DNA from: Saccharopolyspora gregorii
GTDB taxonomy: Bacteria > Actinomycetota > Actinomycetes > Mycobacteriales > Pseudonocardiaceae
DNA: 64,000 nucleotides
NCBI RefSeq assembly: GCF_024734405.1
Contig: NZ_CP059556.1
Location: 4,960,001-5,024,000 of the forward strand
Direction: 5' to 3'
Shown here: positions 4,900-26,435 of the stretch, one piece after another
Position numbering within the stretch: position 1 is the first letter of the stretch
Layout of the letters: each line of letters begins with the position of its first letter
Program-made: the position numbers and the translations under genes
The notes under the pieces: generated by a model
What the model was told of the DNA's origin: nothing
What the model saw: only the letters and a program-made list of their open reading frames with translations
The model's database searches: none

Positions 4900-6212
4900 C
4901 GAAGGCGTGTCGCCGGCAGGCGGCGGAATCGCGCCGGGACCGCCCCCAGTATTCCCGGGCCGGGGCGAGGTTCGTTGGGGGAGCGACCGCCCGGAAGGTT
5001 GCCGACCGGAGGGTTTCCGACCGGCGGAATCCGCACCGGCGGCGGGTTTCCGACTGGCGGGTTGCCGACCGGCGGAATCCGCACCGGCGGCGGGTTTCCG
5101 ACTGGCGGGTTGCCGACCGGCGGATTTCCCGCGGGCGGGTTTCCTCCCTGCGGAGTCCCCACTGGAGGCGGTGTGCCCACCGGCGGCGGCGGAATCGCGC
5201 TCTTCACGGGTGGCTGCTCGGGACCGCCCCCGGGCGGCGGTGTGCCTCCAGGGCCGCCCACCGGCGGCGGTGTACCTCCGGGACCGCCCACCGGCGGCGG
5301 ATCACCCACCGGCGGGGGCGTGCCTTCGGGACCGCCCACCGGTGGCGGTTCCGGAGGCGGCTCGACCGGCGGGGGCTCGTTCGGGGGCGGCTCGACCGGC
5401 GGCGGGTCCGGCGGGGGCTCGTTCGGGGGCGGCTCGGGCGGGGGCTCGACCGGCGGCGGCTCGGGCGGCGGATCGACCGGCGGCGGATCCGGCGGCGGGG
5501 AAGCCGGTCCCTCGCCCTTGACCGGGTCCGGGGTGACGACGTCGTCCTTGCGCCATTCGTAGTTGGACGAGACCTGCACGATGACCTGGCGCATGGACTC
5601 GGTCATGGCTTTGACGACTTCCTCGTCCTTGCTCACCATGACCTTGTTGTCTTCCATTTTCGGGGCGACACCGCGCTGCAACGCCAGATCGGCGTAGTAG
5701 CGGTCGTAGTAGTCGACGGTCTGCCCGCCCCAAGCGAGGTAGTTGCCGTTCATCCGCAGCGTGTCGGAGATCGACCCACCTGCCTCGCTCTCCAACGCAC
5801 CGTCGCTGAGCAGCCTGGCGTGCGCGTCGATGTTGTTGGCGAACGTCTCCATCTTCGCCAGGAAGGCTTGCGCGGCAGGCCCTTTCCAGATGCCGTCCGG
5901 ACCCGCCGTGGCACGGGCCTGATCGCGGAGGTTCGTGGCGACGGACTCCATGGTCTGCCGGGCGAAGTCGAAGTTGTTGGCGGCCTGCTGCAAGGTCACC
6001 GGGTCGACCAGTCCTCGCAGCCGGTCGTCCTGGCCCCCGATCACGGCGGCGCCACCGGTCAACGCGGCCTTGATCCGCTTCCAGTCCCACTCGTTGAAGT
6101 TGTCGTCCCCTTCAGCGGTACCGGCGGAATCGGCGAATACGGAATGCTTGTCGTCATCATCCGTAGTGGTGTTGCTGCTGTTGTCGTCGTACTTTTTCTG
6201 GTGCGAACCCAC
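4710..6212 (-). CDS. T7SS-associated long WXG/PPE-like protein, N-terminal half, frameshifted
   Basis: Starts at GTG 6212. Residues 1-45 are hydrophilic and Asp/Ser-rich. Residues 45-225 are helical and carry a W-K-G motif (109-111) between long helices, the signature of WXG100/PPE-type T7SS substrates. From about residue 231 the protein becomes repeats of PPP[D/E/V/N] and then VGNPPVGNPPPVRIPP units. After about residue 418 the frame turns into arginine-rich sequence of the wrong kind (RFRRLPATRLRWEVRLRS) while proline-rich sequence resumes in the 3247-4899 frame. One base is therefore missing, or a -1 shift occurs, around 4943-4981, near a C5 and a G5 run. The restored protein would have about 990 residues. 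It lies directly upstream of eccC. A sequencing indel, a true pseudogene and translational frameshifting all fit. Confidence 0.6.
   Translation of the reverse strand: MGSHQKKYDDNSSNTTTDDDDKHSVFADSAGTAEGDDNFNEWDWKRIKAALTGGAAVIGGQDDRLRGLVDPVTLQQAANNFDFARQTMESVATNLRDQARATAGPDGIWKGPAAQAFLAKMETFANNIDAHARLLSDGALESEAGGSISDTLRMNGNYLAWGGQTVDYYDRYYADLALQRGVAPKMEDNKVMVSKDEEVVKAMTESMRQVIVQVSSNYEWRKDDVVTPDPVKGEGPASPPPDPPPVDPPPEPPPVEPPPEPPPNEPPPDPPPVEPPPNEPPPVEPPPEPPPVGGPEGTPPPVGDPPPVGGPGGTPPPVGGPGGTPPPGGGPEQPPVKSAIPPPPVGTPPPVGTPQGGNPPAGNPPVGNPPVGNPPPVRIPPVGNPPVGNPPPVRIPPVGNPPVGNLPGGRSPNEPRPGPGILGAVPARFRRLPATRLRWEVRLRSAARPRSAVHLRSAARPRSAMGLQWVNRLGLRRPRAGRPVRASSRRLGRTSAVGCR
5018..5113. repeat. 48-bp tandem repeat, two units
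   Basis: Two head-to-tail 48-bp units (5018-5065 and 5066-5113) encode a 16-residue proline-rich repeat, VGNPPVGNPPPVRIPP, on the minus strand. They lie just upstream of the apparent frameshift. Confidence 0.8.
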
Positions 6213-19526: not shown

Positions 19527-20789
19527 CTAAGCTCGGAAGGCGACGTAGGGGCTGCCCGCCTCTTCTGCTGCGGCGCTCTCGACGAGCATCTGCCCCGTCG
19601 AGTTCACGGCTTCCGGCACGGTCCAGTCGCCACGGGCCACAACTCGGCCGGTGCGGAGATCGATGTGGACGGTGCCGAGGTCGTCGGTGCCGTACCCGAT
19701 GCCGCGGGAAGTGTTCGCCAGGCTCAATCCGGACTGGTGCGCGGGCTGCTGCCACAGCTGTGCACCGGTTCGCCGGTCAATGGCGGTGATGCGGCCGTTC
19801 TCGCCCGGACTCTCGGCGACGATCACGCCTTCCGCCTCGTCGACGTGGGTGGTGACTTCGCGTCGGTCACCGAGATCAGCCACTTGTCGTCCGGTCCGCA
19901 GATCATGGAGCGAACTCCCCAGCATCCGGCTATCACCACTGCTCCAGTCGAGCGCTACGACGTCCGCATCCGAGGCCCCCGTCGCGGATGAGAACGCAGG
20001 TGCGACACGCCGATCACCGGCCTTCGACACCACGGATGCCGGTGCCGCGAGGTCTCGGGCGTTCCACAACGGTTTTCGGTCACCGCTGTCCACGGCTTCG
20101 AGCACCCCGCGCCTTTCGATCAGCACGGTCCCGTCGTGTTCGTAGTGCGGCACCACGTCGCGGCCTTCCCGGGCGACGACCCGGCCGTCCTGCGAAGACA
20201 GCACCATCCGCTCACCTCGAGACTCACCGAAGGTCAGCCCCGGCCCGCGGAGGGATCCGGATACCTCGACCGGACCCCACGCCCGCCGGCCGGTGTGCAC
20301 GTCGAAAGCGCTCGCCGTGGTCCTGGTTGCGAGCTTTCCTCCGCTGGCGTCCGCGTCGCTGAACAGTACGACGGCGAGCGAGCGGTCGCCGCTGCGAGTG
20401 ACCCCGAACCCGGCGCAGGCGGGGTTGGTCCGCACTTTCCATCGGGTCGTCCCGTTGCCATCCACCCCCGCGACGGTCAGGTCCGGTTCGGACGGAGTCG
20501 GGTTCACCAGACCGATGAACATGTCACCGGCCGAGTACGGCGAACTCGAGAACGGGGCCGTCCACAACGGCTGCGCGGGCGGACCGTCCAACGGCCCTGG
20601 TGGCACCGGGCTCGGCGGCTCGTCCAGCAGAGGATGCGCCTCTGGGCCCGCCAGCGGAGGTGCCTGGGCCGGCGGGGTCCCGCAGCCCGCCGTGAGCGCG
20701 AGGAGCAGAACGCCGGTTGCGGCGCTGCGGGTGGGGCGCGGTCCGCTCGAATTCCGCTTGCCTGCCCGGAACGGGCCGAGAGGCCACAT
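19527..20789 (-). CDS. PQQ-like beta-propeller lipoprotein
   Basis: 420 residues from ATG 20789, preferred over ATG 20813 because the latter lies inside a palindromic operator. The signal sequence ends in a lipobox (LLALTAGC), so the protein is lipid-anchored outside the membrane. A proline-rich linker leads to a beta-propeller with repeated blades of the DxxTGxxxW type (FDVHTGRRAW, IDRRTGAQLW, IDLRTGRVVA). No quinoprotein catalytic residues are obvious, so binding or scaffolding is likelier than dehydrogenase activity. Divergent from the BlaI-like repressor gene with the palindrome at 20812-20834 between them, so it is probably part of that regulon. Confidence 0.88.
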   Translation of the reverse strand: MWPLGPFRAGKRNSSGPRPTRSAATGVLLLALTAGCGTPPAQAPPLAGPEAHPLLDEPPSPVPPGPLDGPPAQPLWTAPFSSSPYSAGDMFIGLVNPTPSEPDLTVAGVDGNGTTRWKVRTNPACAGFGVTRSGDRSLAVVLFSDADASGGKLATRTTASAFDVHTGRRAWGPVEVSGSLRGPGLTFGESRGERMVLSSQDGRVVAREGRDVVPHYEHDGTVLIERRGVLEAVDSGDRKPLWNARDLAAPASVVSKAGDRRVAPAFSSATGASDADVVALDWSSGDSRMLGSSLHDLRTGRQVADLGDRREVTTHVDEAEGVIVAESPGENGRITAIDRRTGAQLWQQPAHQSGLSLANTSRGIGYGTDDLGTVHIDLRTGRVVARGDWTVPEAVNSTGQMLVESAAAEEAGSPYVAFRA

Positions 20790-20811
20790 ATCCCCTCTTC
20801 CTACGAGAACC

Positions 20812-20834
20812 ATCTACTATGCAGCATAGTAGAT
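20812..20834. promoter_or_regulatory. Putative BlaI-family operator
   Basis: Perfect dyad with 11-nt arms (ATCTACTATGC and its reverse complement) around one central A. It sits between the divergent lipoprotein and BlaI-like genes. TACTA/TAGTA half-sites are typical of BlaI/MecI-family operators (family knowledge). Confidence 0.8.
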
Positions 20835-21053
20835 ATTCTTCCGGGCCCCGTCCGACCTGCCCCCGCAATCCTTCCGCCTCCGGCTTGGAGATCGTGGATG
20901 AGCATCGTCGGTGCCGTGGGCGCTCTCGGCGCCCTCCGAGGGGCGTTCGCGCGCCCGGCGACGCCCTCGGGCCCACCCGACAAGGGCGTCGGCGGACGGT
21001 TGTGCGCAACGCCCCAGCGGGACGTCTTAGACTGGACCGCCGCAGGAGGTGCG

Positions 21054-21416
21054 ATGCTGGGACTCGGTGAGCTGGAACTCAAGGTGATGAACACCCTGTG
21101 GGCGGCCGATGAACAGCTCCGCGTGCGCGACGTGCTCGCACGGCTCTCGGCCGAGCGGACCTTCGCCTACACCACGATCATGACGGTCCTCGACCACCTG
21201 CACGACAAGGGTTGGGTGCAGCGCACCCGGGTCGGGCGCGCCTTCAGCTACTGGCCCGTGCGCTCGCGAGAGGAAGCGGGTGCCCACGTGCTCCGCGAGG
21301 TGCTCGACTCCTCCGGTGACGCCGAGTCCGTCCTGCTGCACTTCGCCGCCTCCGTCTCCGAGCGCGAGTCGGAACTGCTGCGGCGAGCCCTCAAGAACGG
21401 ACGCGGAACACCATGA
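21054..21416 (+). CDS. BlaI/MecI/CopY-family repressor
   Basis: 120 residues from ATG 21054, set by AGGAGG 5 bases upstream. It has the winged-helix of the family: LGELELKVMNTLWAADEQ, then the recognition region TFAYTTIMTVLDHLHDKGWV, and a C-terminal dimerisation helix with LLHFAASVSERE. In the family, repression ends when the partner M56 membrane protease triggers cleavage. The M56 gene overlaps it by ATGA, so they are translated together. Likely binds the palindromes at 20812-20834 and 22506-22522 (inference). Confidence 0.93.
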   Translation: MLGLGELELKVMNTLWAADEQLRVRDVLARLSAERTFAYTTIMTVLDHLHDKGWVQRTRVGRAFSYWPVRSREEAGAHVLREVLDSSGDAESVLLHFAASVSERESELLRRALKNGRGTP

Positions 21417-22351
21417 CGATGGCCCTCGGGCTACTCACCGGCGCGGTCCTGATCGGCGCTTTCAGCCCGACCTACCTGCGCGGCCTGATCCACCCTCGGG
21501 TGCGCCCCGGCATTGCGCTGGCGGGGTGGGTCGCGTCCCCGCTGGTGGCGATCGGCGCGGCGGTCGCCGGGGCGACGCTGCTGCTGATCCCGGACAGCGG
21601 ATCCGTCGACGGTGTTCTCGGCATGGCTCGCAGCTGCGTCAACGTGGTGCACGGCCACGCGTGGGCCTGGGAGTACGTGATCCGGCTCGGCGGTGCCGCG
21701 CTCGTGGCAGCCGGAGTACTGCGCGTGCTGGTCGTGACCGTCGGACTCGTCCAGCAGGACGCCGTGCTGCGGCGGCGCCACCTGAGCGCAGTGCGATTGC
21801 TCTCGTGCGAGGACCCCGACTCCGCTGTGCTGTGGCTGGACCAAGCCACGCCGGTGGCCTACAGCGTCGGCGGCCGACGCGGCACGATCGTGGCGACCAC
21901 CGGAGTGCGGCACCTCGAGGCCGAGACCCGGGACGCGGTCCTTGCACACGAGCGGGCGCACCTGTCCGGACGGCACCACGCGCTGGTCCTGGTCGTCACC
22001 GCGCTCGCCAAGGCGTTGCCGTTCGTACCGCTGTTCCACGCGGCCCCTCCGGCGGTGCGCGTGCTCGTCGAACTCGCCGCGGACGCGGGAGCCGCCCGGC
22101 GCTGCGGCGCGAGATCGGTGCGCGCCGCGCTGCACGCGGTGACCGGCGACACGACACCGGCGACGTCGCTGGCGATGTCGCGGGAGTCGGTGCAGCTGCG
22201 GTTGCAGTGGCTGCGGGCGGCGACCCCGGCCAACCGGCACCGGGTGTGCTGCGTGGCCGCCGTGGCCGCCTCGACCTCTCCCGCCCTCATCGCCATAGGC
22301 GCTGTGGCGTGCCTGGTGCTGTTGTACTGCTCCGGCGCCCGGGGCTTCTGA
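21413..22351 (+). CDS. M56-family membrane metallopeptidase (BlaR1-like, no sensor domain)
   Basis: 312 residues; ATG 21413 overlaps the blaI stop. Membrane helices near residues 4-20, 36-58, 85-112 and 285-308 surround a cytosolic zinc-peptidase segment with HERAH at 179-183 and a downstream glutamate-rich ELAADAGAARR helix. Unlike BlaR1 it ends at the last helix and has no penicillin-binding extracellular sensor, so the stimulus is not a beta-lactam bound by this protein itself. It presumably inactivates the BlaI-like repressor. Confidence 0.9.
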   Translation: MTMALGLLTGAVLIGAFSPTYLRGLIHPRVRPGIALAGWVASPLVAIGAAVAGATLLLIPDSGSVDGVLGMARSCVNVVHGHAWAWEYVIRLGGAALVAAGVLRVLVVTVGLVQQDAVLRRRHLSAVRLLSCEDPDSAVLWLDQATPVAYSVGGRRGTIVATTGVRHLEAETRDAVLAHERAHLSGRHHALVLVVTALAKALPFVPLFHAAPPAVRVLVELAADAGAARRCGARSVRAALHAVTGDTTPATSLAMSRESVQLRLQWLRAATPANRHRVCCVAAVAASTSPALIAIGAVACLVLLYCSGARGF

Positions 22352-22505
22352 CCGCGCTGGCGGGACGAACGACCGCGAGCACGGGCGACGATCGCGCGGA
22401 CGATTGAACGGCCCCCATGCCCCGACCCGGCCTTCGGCAGCAGCGGACACCGCTCGCCCACACCGAACGTCGTGCGGCGCCCCGTTCCTCGACACCCGGC
22501 CTATT

Positions 22506-22522
22506 TACTACGTTTCGTAGTA
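22506..22522. promoter_or_regulatory. Second putative BlaI-family operator
   Basis: Inverted repeat TACTACG / CGTAGTA with a 3-bp centre, 41 bases before the DsbA-like start. It shares the TACTA...TAGTA core with the palindrome at 20812-20834. Confidence 0.75.
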
Positions 22523-22562
22523 GATACGCTCGTGGCAGCCGAGCGAAGGAGAGTGGCGACCG

Positions 22563-23270
22563 GTGGGCGACACAGGCGCTAAGGGGAAATGGCTGAACGT
22601 GACCGCGGTGGCGCTCGCCGTCGCGGTCGTGTTCCTGCTGGGATACATGCTGGCCGGGCAGGTCGGGTCGAACCAGGCTGCTCCGCAGCAGACCGACGAG
22701 CAGCAGGAGAGCCCGCTGGCGAAACTGGCACGTCGCACCCCCGGTGATCCGGTGGCGCTCGGCAAGCCGGACGCACCGGTCGTCATGCTCAATTACTCGG
22801 ACTACCGGTGCCCGTTCTGCGCGAAGTTCTCCCGCGACATCGAGCCCGAATTAATCAAGCGCTACGTCGATGCCGGCGTGCTGCGCCTCGAATGGCGGGA
22901 TTACCCGATCTTCGGGGAGGAGTCGATCGAAGCCGCCAAGGCCGGGCGTGCGGCAGCAGCCCAAGGCAAGTTCTGGGAATACCTGGGCGCGGTCTACCAG
23001 GCGGCTCCGGAACGGGGACACGCGTCGCTGCCGCACGACCAGCTCATCGACTACGCCAAGCAGGTCGGGATCACCGACATCCCCGGATTCGAGGCGGCCA
23101 TGAACGATCCCGCCACGCTCTCGGCCATCCAGGCAGACGCGACGGAAGGATCCCAAATCGGCGTGTCGAGCACTCCGACGTTCCTGGTCAACGGCGAGCC
23201 GATCCTCGGCGCCCAGCCGCTCGACCAGTTCATCGGCGCCGTCGAACAGGCGAAGGCGACCTCGGAGTGA
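22563..23270 (+). CDS. DsbA-like thioredoxin-fold thiol oxidoreductase, membrane-anchored
   Basis: 235 residues from GTG 22563, preceded by GAAGGAGAG. One N-terminal anchor helix (about 12-32) puts the thioredoxin fold outside the membrane. The active site is C83-P-F-C86 in a DsbA-type setting (YSDYRCPFCAKFS), with the cis-proline loop SSTPTF. The inserted helical region EYLGAVYQAAPERG fits the DsbA family. It overlaps the CcdA-like gene by GTGA and follows the second operator, so the two are likely one transcript for disulfide exchange on exported proteins. Confidence 0.92.
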   Translation: MGDTGAKGKWLNVTAVALAVAVVFLLGYMLAGQVGSNQAAPQQTDEQQESPLAKLARRTPGDPVALGKPDAPVVMLNYSDYRCPFCAKFSRDIEPELIKRYVDAGVLRLEWRDYPIFGEESIEAAKAGRAAAAQGKFWEYLGAVYQAAPERGHASLPHDQLIDYAKQVGITDIPGFEAAMNDPATLSAIQADATEGSQIGVSSTPTFLVNGEPILGAQPLDQFIGAVEQAKATSE

Positions 23271-24151
23271 GCGAGATCGGACTGCTCGGCGCGTTCCTCG
23301 GCGGACTGCTGACCCTGATCAGCCCGTGCTCGGCGATGCTGCTGCCGTCCTTCTTCGCCTACGCCTTCGACGGCCTCGGCAAGCTGGTCGCCCGGAGCGC
23401 GGTCTTCTACCTCGGACTCACCACCACCCTGGTCCCGCTCGGGGCCGCCGCAGGATTCTTCGGCGCGCTGCTTACCCAGCACCGCACGGCACTCACCGTG
23501 GCCAGCGGCGTGGTGCTGATCGCGCTCGGGCTGCTGCAGATCTCCGGCAAGGGCTTCGGATTCGCCGCGGCGCAACGCATGACCGGCCGGATCCGCATCT
23601 CCTCCGGACTGTCCGTGTACGCGCTCGGCACGGTCTACGGACTGGCCGGGTTCTGCGCCGGACCGCTGCTGGGCAGCGTGCTCACCGTCTCGGCCGCCGG
23701 AGGCGAGACGCTCTACGGCGCGATCCTGCTCGCCCTGTTCGCACTCGGCATGGCCTTCCCGCTGTTCCTGCTGGCACTGCTCTGGGAGCGACTCCGGCTC
23801 GGCGAGCGAGCGTGGTTGCGCGGGCGCGAAGTCACCATCGGCCGCATGCGCCTGCACACCACCAACATCATCTCCGGGCTCGTGTTCGCGACCATCGGCC
23901 TGATGTTCGTGCTCACCGAAGGCACCGCGAACCTCGGCGGACTGACCGATGTGGACACCCAATTCGCGGTGCAGGCGTGGTTGCAGCAGACCAGCAGCAG
24001 AATCTCGAACACCACCGTGCTGCTGGCGCTCGCCGTCGTCGCCCTCGCCGCGGTGCTGTGGAAGATCGCACGTATCCGCCGCTCGGAAGGCGACGTCTCC
24101 GACGCTGCGTCCGACGAGACCGCATTCGTCGCAGGCCAGCAGAACGACTGA
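23267..24151 (+). CDS. CcdA/DsbD-family transmembrane thiol-reductant carrier
   Basis: 294 residues from GTG 23267, translationally coupled to the DsbA-like gene. Six to eight membrane segments, with the paired cysteine sites of the family: LISPCSAMLLPSF in the first helix and LAGFCAGPLLGSV in the fourth. Family members carry electrons from cytosolic thioredoxin to outside acceptors. The hydrophilic tail of about 25 residues is acidic. Its likely partner is the adjacent CPFC protein. Confidence 0.92.
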   Translation: MSEIGLLGAFLGGLLTLISPCSAMLLPSFFAYAFDGLGKLVARSAVFYLGLTTTLVPLGAAAGFFGALLTQHRTALTVASGVVLIALGLLQISGKGFGFAAAQRMTGRIRISSGLSVYALGTVYGLAGFCAGPLLGSVLTVSAAGGETLYGAILLALFALGMAFPLFLLALLWERLRLGERAWLRGREVTIGRMRLHTTNIISGLVFATIGLMFVLTEGTANLGGLTDVDTQFAVQAWLQQTSSRISNTTVLLALAVVALAAVLWKIARIRRSEGDVSDAASDETAFVAGQQND

Positions 24152-24303: not shown

Positions 24304-25212
24304 TCAGGCTGGTTGCTCCGGACGGGGAGACTTCGAGCTGCCGAGCGAGGCCCGTTCGAGCTCCTCGTTGATCGCGGTCGTGATCGCGGAGAGCAACTGG
24401 TCGCCGTCGATACCGTGTTGCTCGGACACGGCCTGCGTGAGATCGCGCAATGCCTCCTGCTGAGTGTCGGAGTGCGCCAGCAGCGTGTTCACGCGCTGGT
24501 CGATTCGCCGCAAGAAGTCCACATCGGACAGCTTGACGGTCGGATCCACGAAAGAGGGGAATCCGGGGAACTGACCCGGTTCTCGGCTCCCGGTGAGCTG
24601 CTCTTTGATGTCGTCGAGGAATTGGCGGTCGGCGGGGGTGAACATGTCGCCCTCCAAGGCGTCATGGATTTGCGCTCGCACGTCGTTCATGCTGATCGAT
24701 CTGTCAGGAGGAGCGAAGCCCGGATCCCACTTCCCGGTCACGGACGTCTCGTAGTGCCCCTTGATCCATTCGGGACCACGGTTCAGGATCTCGCAGATGA
24801 CCGCACCGAGCTGCACCATCGAATGCCATTGCGCGTCAGTCATGGGATTCGTGCCCGGGTAGACGATCTCGTGTCCCCACACCATCCGGTTGAACACCCC
24901 GGTGTCGGGGAATGGCCTGGTTCCCCGCCCTCCGGAGGCGCCCGCGTGGTTGGCGGGATGGGCGGCGACGATGGTGATCGACCCGTCCGAGCACCCCGCG
25001 CTGTTGCACAAGGGACCGGAAAGATCCGGTCGCCCGGCGACCAGTGCGGGAAAGGCGTCCCCGTACGCGGTGGCGGTGTGGTGCATGATGCCACCCGCGT
25101 AAGCACTGGTCTGCCCATTGCCGTTGCGCCGCCAGTCCGTCCAGTTGTCACTGACGACCACACCGCGCGCCCGGAGGCGTCTGATCACTTCGGTGGCGAA
25201 TGCGACGCTCAT
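24304..25212 (-). CDS. Phage-type N-acetylmuramoyl-L-alanine amidase (PGRP/amidase_2-like)
   Basis: 302 residues from ATG 25212. Amidase domain in residues 1-180: zinc-ligand HH in GGIMHHTAT, then GRPDLSGPLCN and AHPANHAG, and HYETSVTGKWDPGF near the end of the domain. These are the features of actinophage endolysin amidases. The C-terminal 120 residues hold a module (MFTPADRQFLDDIKEQLTGS then PGQFPGF) also present in the GH25 enzyme next door and in the second amidase at 36263. No signal peptide, as in lysins. The ATGA overlap with the upstream small gene makes it part of a lysis-type operon. Confidence 0.88.
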   Translation of the reverse strand: MSVAFATEVIRRLRARGVVVSDNWTDWRRNGNGQTSAYAGGIMHHTATAYGDAFPALVAGRPDLSGPLCNSAGCSDGSITIVAAHPANHAGASGGRGTRPFPDTGVFNRMVWGHEIVYPGTNPMTDAQWHSMVQLGAVICEILNRGPEWIKGHYETSVTGKWDPGFAPPDRSISMNDVRAQIHDALEGDMFTPADRQFLDDIKEQLTGSREPGQFPGFPSFVDPTVKLSDVDFLRRIDQRVNTLLAHSDTQQEALRDLTQAVSEQHGIDGDQLLSAITTAINEELERASLGSSKSPRPEQPA

Positions 25213-25454: not shown

Positions 25455-26435
25455 TCATGGCGTGGGCTCCGCCGGGGCGTTCTCGCCGGAAGGCTGAGAA
25501 GGAACCGACACCGTCATCGCCGTGCGCACGGCCTCCCGGGCCTTGGTCACGACCTCGTCGGAGTTGACCGAGCCCGACCGCAACGCGGTGGCCAGCGCAC
25601 TGATCGCGGCTGCCTGCCCGGCTTCCTTGCCTTCGATCTTCCACGAGTTGGAGGCGAAGCGGATGTAGTCCGTCAGCGTCTCCTTGTTGCCGTTCACGAG
25701 GTTCTCCCAACCTGGGAACTGGCCGGGTTGTCTGCTGCCGGAGAACTGCTCTGCGATGTCGATCAAATTGTGCTGATCGCGTTCTGTGAACATGTCGTCT
25801 CCTTGGAGAGTGTGCTCGAGTTCCGGTCTCGTGCCGCCGAAGGCATTGACATCGACGGGAGTGTGCCCCGCGATCGTGGACTCGTCGCTGAACTGGAGAA
25901 CGGCGACGTCGAGACCGCCGTATCCGTTCCAGAATTCGGCGGGAACGCGGCCGAAAATGTGCCCAGGCGCACCCGGAAGATCGTTGACGTAGCGCGAGGA
26001 CCACAGGGCCGGTGCCAGCCCGCGCAGGTCGGGCCTCCCGATCTGTTCCCACCACCAGCGAGGAAGGTAGAGCAACGGCAGCACGCGCCCACTGGTGCGT
26101 AGCCGGTTCGTCACGTCCCAGGTCTTGTGGATGTCCGCTCCTTGCCCGTTCCTGTCTCGCTCGACATCGAGGATCACCGGGCAGGAGGAGGGCACGGTTC
26201 GCAGCACGTGGTCGGCGTTGATCTCACCCGTTTCCCACGGCGCGATGAAGTGGTACGCCGCGACCACCATGCCCGCCTCACGTGCGACGCGGAGGTTGCG
26301 GTGGAAATGCATGTCGACCGCGTTGGTAGCCCGGTCCCAACAGCGGATGATCGCGAACTCGACGCCTTCGACGCGGGCCCGGTGAAAGTCGACGTTGCCG
26401 CCCTGCCAGCGGCTCACGTCCATGCCGAAGATCAT
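25455..26435 (-). CDS. GH25-family lysozyme (endolysin-like)
   Basis: 326 residues from ATG 26435, after a GGAGACGGGAAC ribosome site. Residues 1-205 form the GH25 muramidase barrel: FGMDVSRWQGG (catalytic Asp 6), YHFIAPWETGE, and VILDVERD with the acidic pair. The C-terminal 120 residues carry the module MFTERDQHNLIDIAEQFSGS / PGQFPGW shared with the two amidases. No signal peptide. Its stop overlaps a downstream ATG, so it is translated with the rest of the lysis-type operon. Confidence 0.92.
   Translation of the reverse strand: MIFGMDVSRWQGGNVDFHRARVEGVEFAIIRCWDRATNAVDMHFHRNLRVAREAGMVVAAYHFIAPWETGEINADHVLRTVPSSCPVILDVERDRNGQGADIHKTWDVTNRLRTSGRVLPLLYLPRWWWEQIGRPDLRGLAPALWSSRYVNDLPGAPGHIFGRVPAEFWNGYGGLDVAVLQFSDESTIAGHTPVDVNAFGGTRPELEHTLQGDDMFTERDQHNLIDIAEQFSGSRQPGQFPGWENLVNGNKETLTDYIRFASNSWKIEGKEAGQAAAISALATALRSGSVNSDEVVTKAREAVRTAMTVSVPSQPSGENAPAEPTP

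Follow-up and report, generated by a model that had tools for sequence, protein, structure and literature searches.

What does a BlaI repressor control, and to what does it respond, when the M56 membrane protease encoded beside it carries no sensor for beta-lactams? The best-known pairs of BlaI and an M56 protease control beta-lactam resistance. The question is raised by a locus at positions 19527-24151 of a stretch of Saccharopolyspora gregorii DNA (64,000 nucleotides of a 6.34-Mb genome, called the window below), in which a beta-propeller gene on the minus strand is followed by a palindrome (operator 1), blaI, the M56 gene, a second palindrome (operator 2), dsbA and ccdA (Table 1). A sequence-only reading of the window had placed two TACTA...TAGTA palindromes before the propeller and repressor genes and before the DsbA/CcdA operon, and the genes and sites are found at these places.

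We favor, with confidence a little above even, a BlaI/M56 switch that would keep the thiol-disulfide balance outside the membrane, in which a thiol pair would replace the beta-lactam sensor and which would control DsbA, CcdA and their partners. The part of this reading that concerns the repressor, its operators and its regulon is well supported, and we hold it with high confidence. What can be read from the sequences themselves are the genes, the sites and their conservation, the persistence of the dsbA site away from blaI, two co-conserved cysteines in the protease and the lack of a sensor domain.

The operators and their conservation

Exact TACTA-N7-TAGTA occurs in the genome at two places, both at this locus and 1.7 kb or less apart. 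One is a predicted operator in the promoter region of blaI itself, and the only copy of blaI in the whole genome lies between the two. Shuffled versions of the window contained a mean of 0.01 matches with at most one mismatch whereas the real window contains three, two of them exact. The case for real operators is their position beside the only BlaI gene and their conservation, not their number; by position and conservation, chance palindromes were ruled out. A palindrome with a spacer of 2 gave zero matches, the real spacer being 7. The third match in the window, TAGTAGCGGTCGTAGTA at 5695-5711, has one mismatch, and a genome search with a stricter form of the pattern and one mismatch allowed yielded one further place.

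To assess conservation, the M56 protein was searched against 249 genomes of the family, of which 75 match at E 1e-30 or better, and against named genomes, which gave one locus in Saccharopolyspora sp. NFXS83 (L042). Regions of 12-13 kb were fetched around 40 of the listed matches, and L042 was added; homologues of DsbA and CcdA are present in 25 of these 41 loci, hereafter the linked loci, and not in 16. The 27 best full-length M56 rows extend from the genome itself down to 46-48% identity. All 27 genomes possess dsbA-ccdA, which lies beside blaI-M56 in 25 and on another contig in two (G045 and G078), and in all 27 the site precedes dsbA, exactly in 24 and with one mismatch in three. Even the separate contigs of G045 and G078 retain dsbA-ccdA behind the site. 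The sequence-only reading had tied BlaI/M56 to extracytoplasmic disulfide chemistry and had proposed a search of genomes for the palindrome before dsbA/ccdA-like operons near blaI-M56; it was found in relatives, the operator is conserved, and its place before dsbA in every one of the best rows bears out the tie.

The position is specific. With one mismatch allowed, the site was detected upstream of dsbA in 24 of the 25 fetched linked loci, as opposed to 2 of 169 control gene starts in the same loci, one of which shares an intergenic region with a target gene. The spacer is 7 in 21 of the 25 linked loci, and the next commonest spacer accounts for three. Upstream of blaI the site is less regular and was recorded by the script in 12 of the 25, L045 and L059 being scored as misses although the site precedes the gene that leads into blaI. 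In L287, L289 and L290 the site precedes dsbA with no blaI near. Within the genus, three genomes with a close M56 orthologue hold 2, 4 and 2 sites and three genomes that lack one hold none (0, 0, 0); in G001, which belongs to the genus and lacks the close orthologue, dsbA-ccdA adjoins another BlaI/M56 pair and the sites are imperfect (L275). The whole genome contains as many exact sites as the fetched locus in 9 of 29 genomes searched (G000, G005, G017, G040, G056, G089, G119, G126 and G135), and some other genomes hold more. In L063 (G089) there are two tandem dsbA genes, each with its own exact operator.

If BlaI regulated only itself, the palindrome before dsbA would be incidental. The number of exact sites agrees with this explanation, because two in the genome are no excess over chance, a control of equal composition being present at six places. 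The conservation of the dsbA site nevertheless contradicts it, in the 27 rows as compared with the control starts and in genomes in which the site is kept away from blaI, and we regard it as very improbable.

A protease with two conserved cysteines

The M56 protein has its HExxH motif at residue 179, and the motif is present in all 25 fetched linked orthologues. Hydropathy and charge fit three helices, separated by a basic inner loop (helices 1-2) and an acidic outer loop (helices 2-3), followed by a cytoplasmic protease domain that includes a hydrophobic stretch and by a last helix with which the protein ends. The basic loop 1 and the acidic loop with C75 agree with the positive-inside rule. 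The 25 linked orthologues comprise 311-321 residues and stop 3-11 residues past their last cysteine, and a Pfam scan of the window protein revealed no C-terminal penicillin-binding sensor domain, as the sequence-only reading had claimed. Because this domain is absent, the protease is not itself a BlaR1 member, although the system would work like BlaI-BlaR1.

What the linked proteins share instead is a pair of cysteines, C75 and C306, that is invariant in 26 linked M56 sequences. Among 155 complete M56 proteins, 137 have both, 17 have neither and one has only the tail cysteine; nine of 165 proteins had been dropped as incomplete, and the window protein, present twice in the remaining 156 (138/17/1), was reduced to one by removal of its copy (L001). 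Counted by exact column, 137 have both, 17 neither and two have one, since the tail cysteine of L236 lies off the column. No other cysteine column reaches half, the next being at 34 of 82. Ten of the 17 proteins with neither cysteine form one clade from a single family, which we take to be the mycobacterial family and its members orthologues of Rv1845c, unlike the window protein in this respect. Whether M56 senses the thiol state through C75 and C306 seems to us about evenly balanced, the support being a conserved cysteine pair that is predicted to be extracytoplasmic.

In the BlaR1 structures, the sensor domain comes after the last helix and, once acylated, passes its signal on through the loop that joins helices 2 and 3 (PMC9834060). 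A C75-C306 bond would tie the counterpart of the relay loop to the element that carries the sensor domain in BlaR1. In a profile search with M56 for solved structures, BlaR1 was not among the four chains returned at E up to 1, so the equivalence of the loops rests on topology and the published paper.

The BlaI-BlaR1 and MecI-MecR1 systems of Staphylococcus and Bacillus resemble the locus in their winged-helix repressor, palindromic operator and adjoining membrane zinc protease and in the presumed cleavage of the repressor at an x-F bond; the locus differs in its lack of a beta-lactam sensor, in its cysteine pair, in the N7 spacer and in having a thiol-disulfide operon rather than a beta-lactamase as its second target. 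MecI is cleaved at an N-F bond. The VLLHFA stretch of the window BlaI aligns with the VLNFV stretch of MecI, in the dimerisation domain (alignment to MecI and 2g9w), and V/ILLHFA is kept in 26 of 26 BlaI sequences, which makes it a candidate x-F cleavage stretch. The solved chain 2g9w, which we take to be Rv1846c, is homologous to the window BlaI (E 1.3e-17). Also related is the mycobacterial BlaI-BlaR system (Rv1846c-Rv1845c), likewise an actinobacterial BlaI with an M56 protein that has no sensor domain. Such a short mycobacterial M56 protein was already known, and among the targets reported for BlaI there are blaC, cytochrome bd and ATP synthase (PMC5473688) as well as sigC (PMC8265638). 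As far as that account of the mycobacterial proteases goes, the signal input to these sensor-less proteins is stated as open (PMC5473688). The outer cysteine pair offers a concrete hypothesis for such an input.

On these grounds we infer repression, proteolysis, a thiol signal and the direction of that signal in the following cycle. At rest, BlaI dimers bound to TACTA-N7-TAGTA would repress both dsbA-ccdA, from the site upstream of it, and the divergent propeller gene and blaI-M56, from the site that separates these two. A change in the state of C75 and C306, through a disulfide made or broken or through attack by an oxidant or reactive sulfur, would move helix 3. The cytoplasmic HExxH domain would then cleave BlaI near LLH-F, and dsbA-ccdA, the propeller gene and blaI-M56 would become transcribed. 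DsbA and CcdA would restore the thiol poise and the sensor would reset.

Target genes in relatives and the nature of the signal

The genes that follow the site in relatives indicate what the switch may serve. At 174 distinct sites, the next gene downstream most often belongs to the DsbA cluster (20 loci), followed by a small membrane protein with a CPxCN motif (15), BlaI (13), a BNR protein of the F510_1955 family (9), the propeller (7), a multicopper oxidase (7), CcdA-like, DUF6153 and NlpC/P60 proteins (6 each) and, among those with 4, a ResA/TlpA-like redoxin; these counts are biased, as most loci were chosen for nearness to M56 and many for nearness to dsbA. The CPxCN membrane protein is, by its place behind the site, a third recurrent target in other genomes, and the window's genome has none at E 0.01. 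It has no Pfam match above cut-off, its best weak relative being MerT with 17-21 bits. The motif is present in all 23 members of a cluster made by similarity; an alignment of 15 CPxCN proteins had been collected by the motif itself. CcdA and the CPxCN protein share a single reading frame in L172 (2348-4588) and are fused in a frame of 454 residues in L222 (6292-7656, minus strand).

Linkage was counted for 119 complete M56 proteins with more than 4 kb on both sides, in 118 loci. DsbA and CcdA lie within 5 kb of 31 of them, and within the same distance of these 31 there is an exact site in 25 and a CPxCN gene in 18. The 31 proteins fall into three separated groups of the M56 tree, which was calculated with FastTree and has several long branches, so that the number of origins is uncertain. 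One group is the window's clade. A second (L152, L160 and L206, from another family) and a third (L172 and L222, from a third family) have the order dsbA-ccdA-blaI-M56, in the third with an exact site before dsbA. In L275, L284, L285, L286 and L288, M56-blaI is divergent from dsbA-ccdA, with two tandem imperfect TACTA-N7-TARRA sequences between. Extra BlaI/M56 pairs were also observed in islands in L087-L097, L069 and L080, in genomes with up to 17 TACTA-N7-TAGTA sites; the island genes encode a heme-copper oxidase, CcdA-like protein, redoxin, sortase, Lgt, Lnt, multicopper oxidase and L,D-transpeptidase. In L101 (7878-7913), two tandem sites lie between the gene of a tricorn-like protease and a divergent gene.

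A distinct set of neighbors suggests that the stress is one of thiols or reactive sulfur. Genes of sulfur metabolism (CstR/CsoR-like, MBL-rhodanese, rhodanese-TM and TauE) lie near 8 of 30 linked loci, the window excluded, and near none of 87 unlinked loci (Fisher 8.6e-6, without correction for kinship or for flanks that were in part unequal, 6 kb as opposed to 5 kb). In L043 (8885-12195), a close relative, all four are found directly 3' of ccdA. Actinobacterial CstR sulfane-sulfur clusters reportedly have a separate regulator; their genes lie beside some relatives and not in the window. Thiol systems of the Scs/DsbD type combine a DsbA-like protein with a membrane electron carrier of the CcdA/DsbD type. 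The locus differs from them in its short CcdA without added domains, its control by BlaI/M56 and its propeller lipoprotein.

The signal might instead be a thiophilic metal, copper or one that resembles mercury, bound by the M56 cysteines, with DsbA-CcdA, and elsewhere the MerT-like CPxCN protein, protecting or rebuilding metal-damaged envelope proteins as in the proteobacterial Scs system. Several features suit such a response: related BlaI/M56 islands with the same operator contain multicopper oxidase (7 loci), DUF305 and CbtA, in L076 the oxidase gene adjoins that of a small TCGHC protein which, by eye, looks like a heavy-metal domain, the similarity of the CPxCN protein to MerT, if weak and below cut-off, fits as well, and DsbA matches the solved copper-sensitivity and metal-resistance proteins 4gxz, 6nen and 6mhh at lower rank. 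BlaI, moreover, belongs to the superfamily of the CopY/CopR copper repressors, whose operator is of the dyad type (PMC7253601). CopY, however, binds metal through CXC motifs, is not controlled by a protease and has a different operator spacing, whereas the 120-residue BlaI of the window contains no cysteine, and hence no C-terminal CXC motif, and scores 39.7 bits with the CopY_TcrY model (cut-off 121.95). Pfam identifies no metal gene among the five that make up the two-site regulon, and the only outer-loop Cys, His or Met columns that pass a threshold of 20/42 are C75 and M71, the latter present in 2 of 16 unlinked paralogues. A His four residues before the second cysteine of the CsoR family is a copper ligand. 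The CsoR-family neighbors in L043 and L288 have Gly there. A metal response is, in our judgment, unlikely, at roughly one chance in four or a little less.

The regulon could also be real and C75-C306 merely a structural disulfide, the true signal being another envelope state such as cell-wall damage, a misfolded exported protein or loss of a lipoprotein. The cysteine pair occurs in 81 of 88 M56 proteins with no DsbA-CcdA near, so it is not specific to the thiol regulon; sites also precede genes for L,D-transpeptidase, NlpC/P60, sortase, Lgt and Lnt relatives, and a propeller lipoprotein is predicted to be co-regulated. Yet the commonest target clusters, for all the bias in their sampling, are thiol enzymes, and a bond whose formation depends on DsbA would in itself be a readout of how active DsbA is. 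We consider a purely structural role rather improbable.

Besides the wide occurrence of the pair and the sampling of the targets, further observations weigh against a thiol switch. In the unlinked relatives, among them ones that share the cysteine pair and the operator, sites precede genes for multicopper oxidase, cytochrome (heme-copper) oxidase, sortase and cell-wall functions, and for this reason the class of signals may exceed thiols. Kinship connects some of the loci that have sulfur genes, part of their flanks are longer, and none of these genes lies in the window. Gain or loss of the cysteine pair on the tree is infrequent (about five changes, 3-4 independent comparisons), too few for a significant test, and structure prediction of M56 from two sequences gave a predicted local distance difference test score (pLDDT) of 41, too low to judge whether C75 lies close to C306. 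The linked but more distant L081 lacks a site near its dsbA, L152, L160 and L206 have no exact site, and a scan for sigma-70-type promoters near the sites found nothing.

The general form of the proposal falls, in our judgment, just short of an even chance. It states that a whole subfamily of short BlaR1-type proteases would have, instead of the penicillin sensor, a two-cysteine switch that couples the last helix, at its end, with the outer signalling loop. In the lineages of this study the switch would read the thiol-disulfide or reactive-sulfur state outside the membrane and control DsbA, CcdA and elsewhere the CPxCN protein in a closed loop. Among the titles and abstract openings listed from a mostly non-subscription literature, none concerns control of DsbA/CcdA by BlaI/M56 or the M56 cysteine pair. 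If true, the proposal would mean that a receptor family best known for its response to beta-lactams also has a thiol input, would define the control of extracytoplasmic disulfide chemistry in some actinobacteria and would assign to a thiol pathway the CPxCN membrane protein, which has no Pfam family and of which one lineage has a fusion to CcdA.

Genes of the locus

Table 1. Coordinates in the window of the predicted operators, genes and cysteine codons
Feature	Position	Strand	Remarks
PQQ/BamB-like beta-propeller, probable lipoprotein	19527-20813	-	PF13360 36 bits; divergent target of operator 1
Operator 1, TACTATGCAGCATAGTA	20815-20831		TACTA-N7-TAGTA, between propeller gene and blaI
BlaI repressor, 120 aa	21054-21416	+	PF03965 (Penicillinase_R, full length) 95.1 bits, cut-off 22.6
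M56-type membrane zinc protease, M56/M48-like, 312 aa	21413-22351	+	PF05569 29.0 bits (cut-off 31.0); PF01435 26.3 (cut-off 20.3)
C75 codon	21635-21637	+	predicted extracytoplasmic loop, helices 2-3
C306 codon	22328-22330	+	predicted outer end of last membrane helix
Operator 2, TACTACGTTTCGTAGTA	22506-22522		TACTA-N7-TAGTA, 40 bases upstream of dsbA
DsbA-like thiol oxidoreductase, membrane-anchored, CPFC	22563-23270	+	PF13462 106 bits
CcdA/DsbD_TM-like thiol electron carrier	23267-24151	+	PF02683 56.1 bits, cut-off 27.1

The blaI and M56 genes overlap by four bases, as do dsbA and ccdA. The DsbA protein matches both PF13462 and PF01323 above cut-off, and its nearest solved chains are those of DsbA in 4pwp/4pwo (E 1.4e-40). 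Its active-site CxxC is CPFC in 23 of the 25 linked orthologues and CPYC in two. CcdA contains two cysteines, one in each membrane half, at residues 21 and 130 (ISPCS and GFCAGP).

The propeller protein has a signal-like N-terminus, and its own lipobox, L-T-A-G-C, is off-consensus; a script found LTAC, LAAC, LVAC or LSAC in all eight orthologues fetched. In relatives the propeller orthologue lies upstream of blaI-M56, behind an operator-type site. In L276 and L279 it follows dsbA-ccdA with no BlaI near, which suggests that the propeller gene is associated with those for the thiol enzymes.

The same genome contains a second DsbA-CcdA pair (L291, 2514000-2527000), with a CcdA that is 46% identical and without an operator. 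Beyond ccdA, an Amidase_2 protein is encoded at 24304-25212 of the window, and a neighbor at about 25455-26435 on the minus strand clusters with it in an all-against-all comparison.

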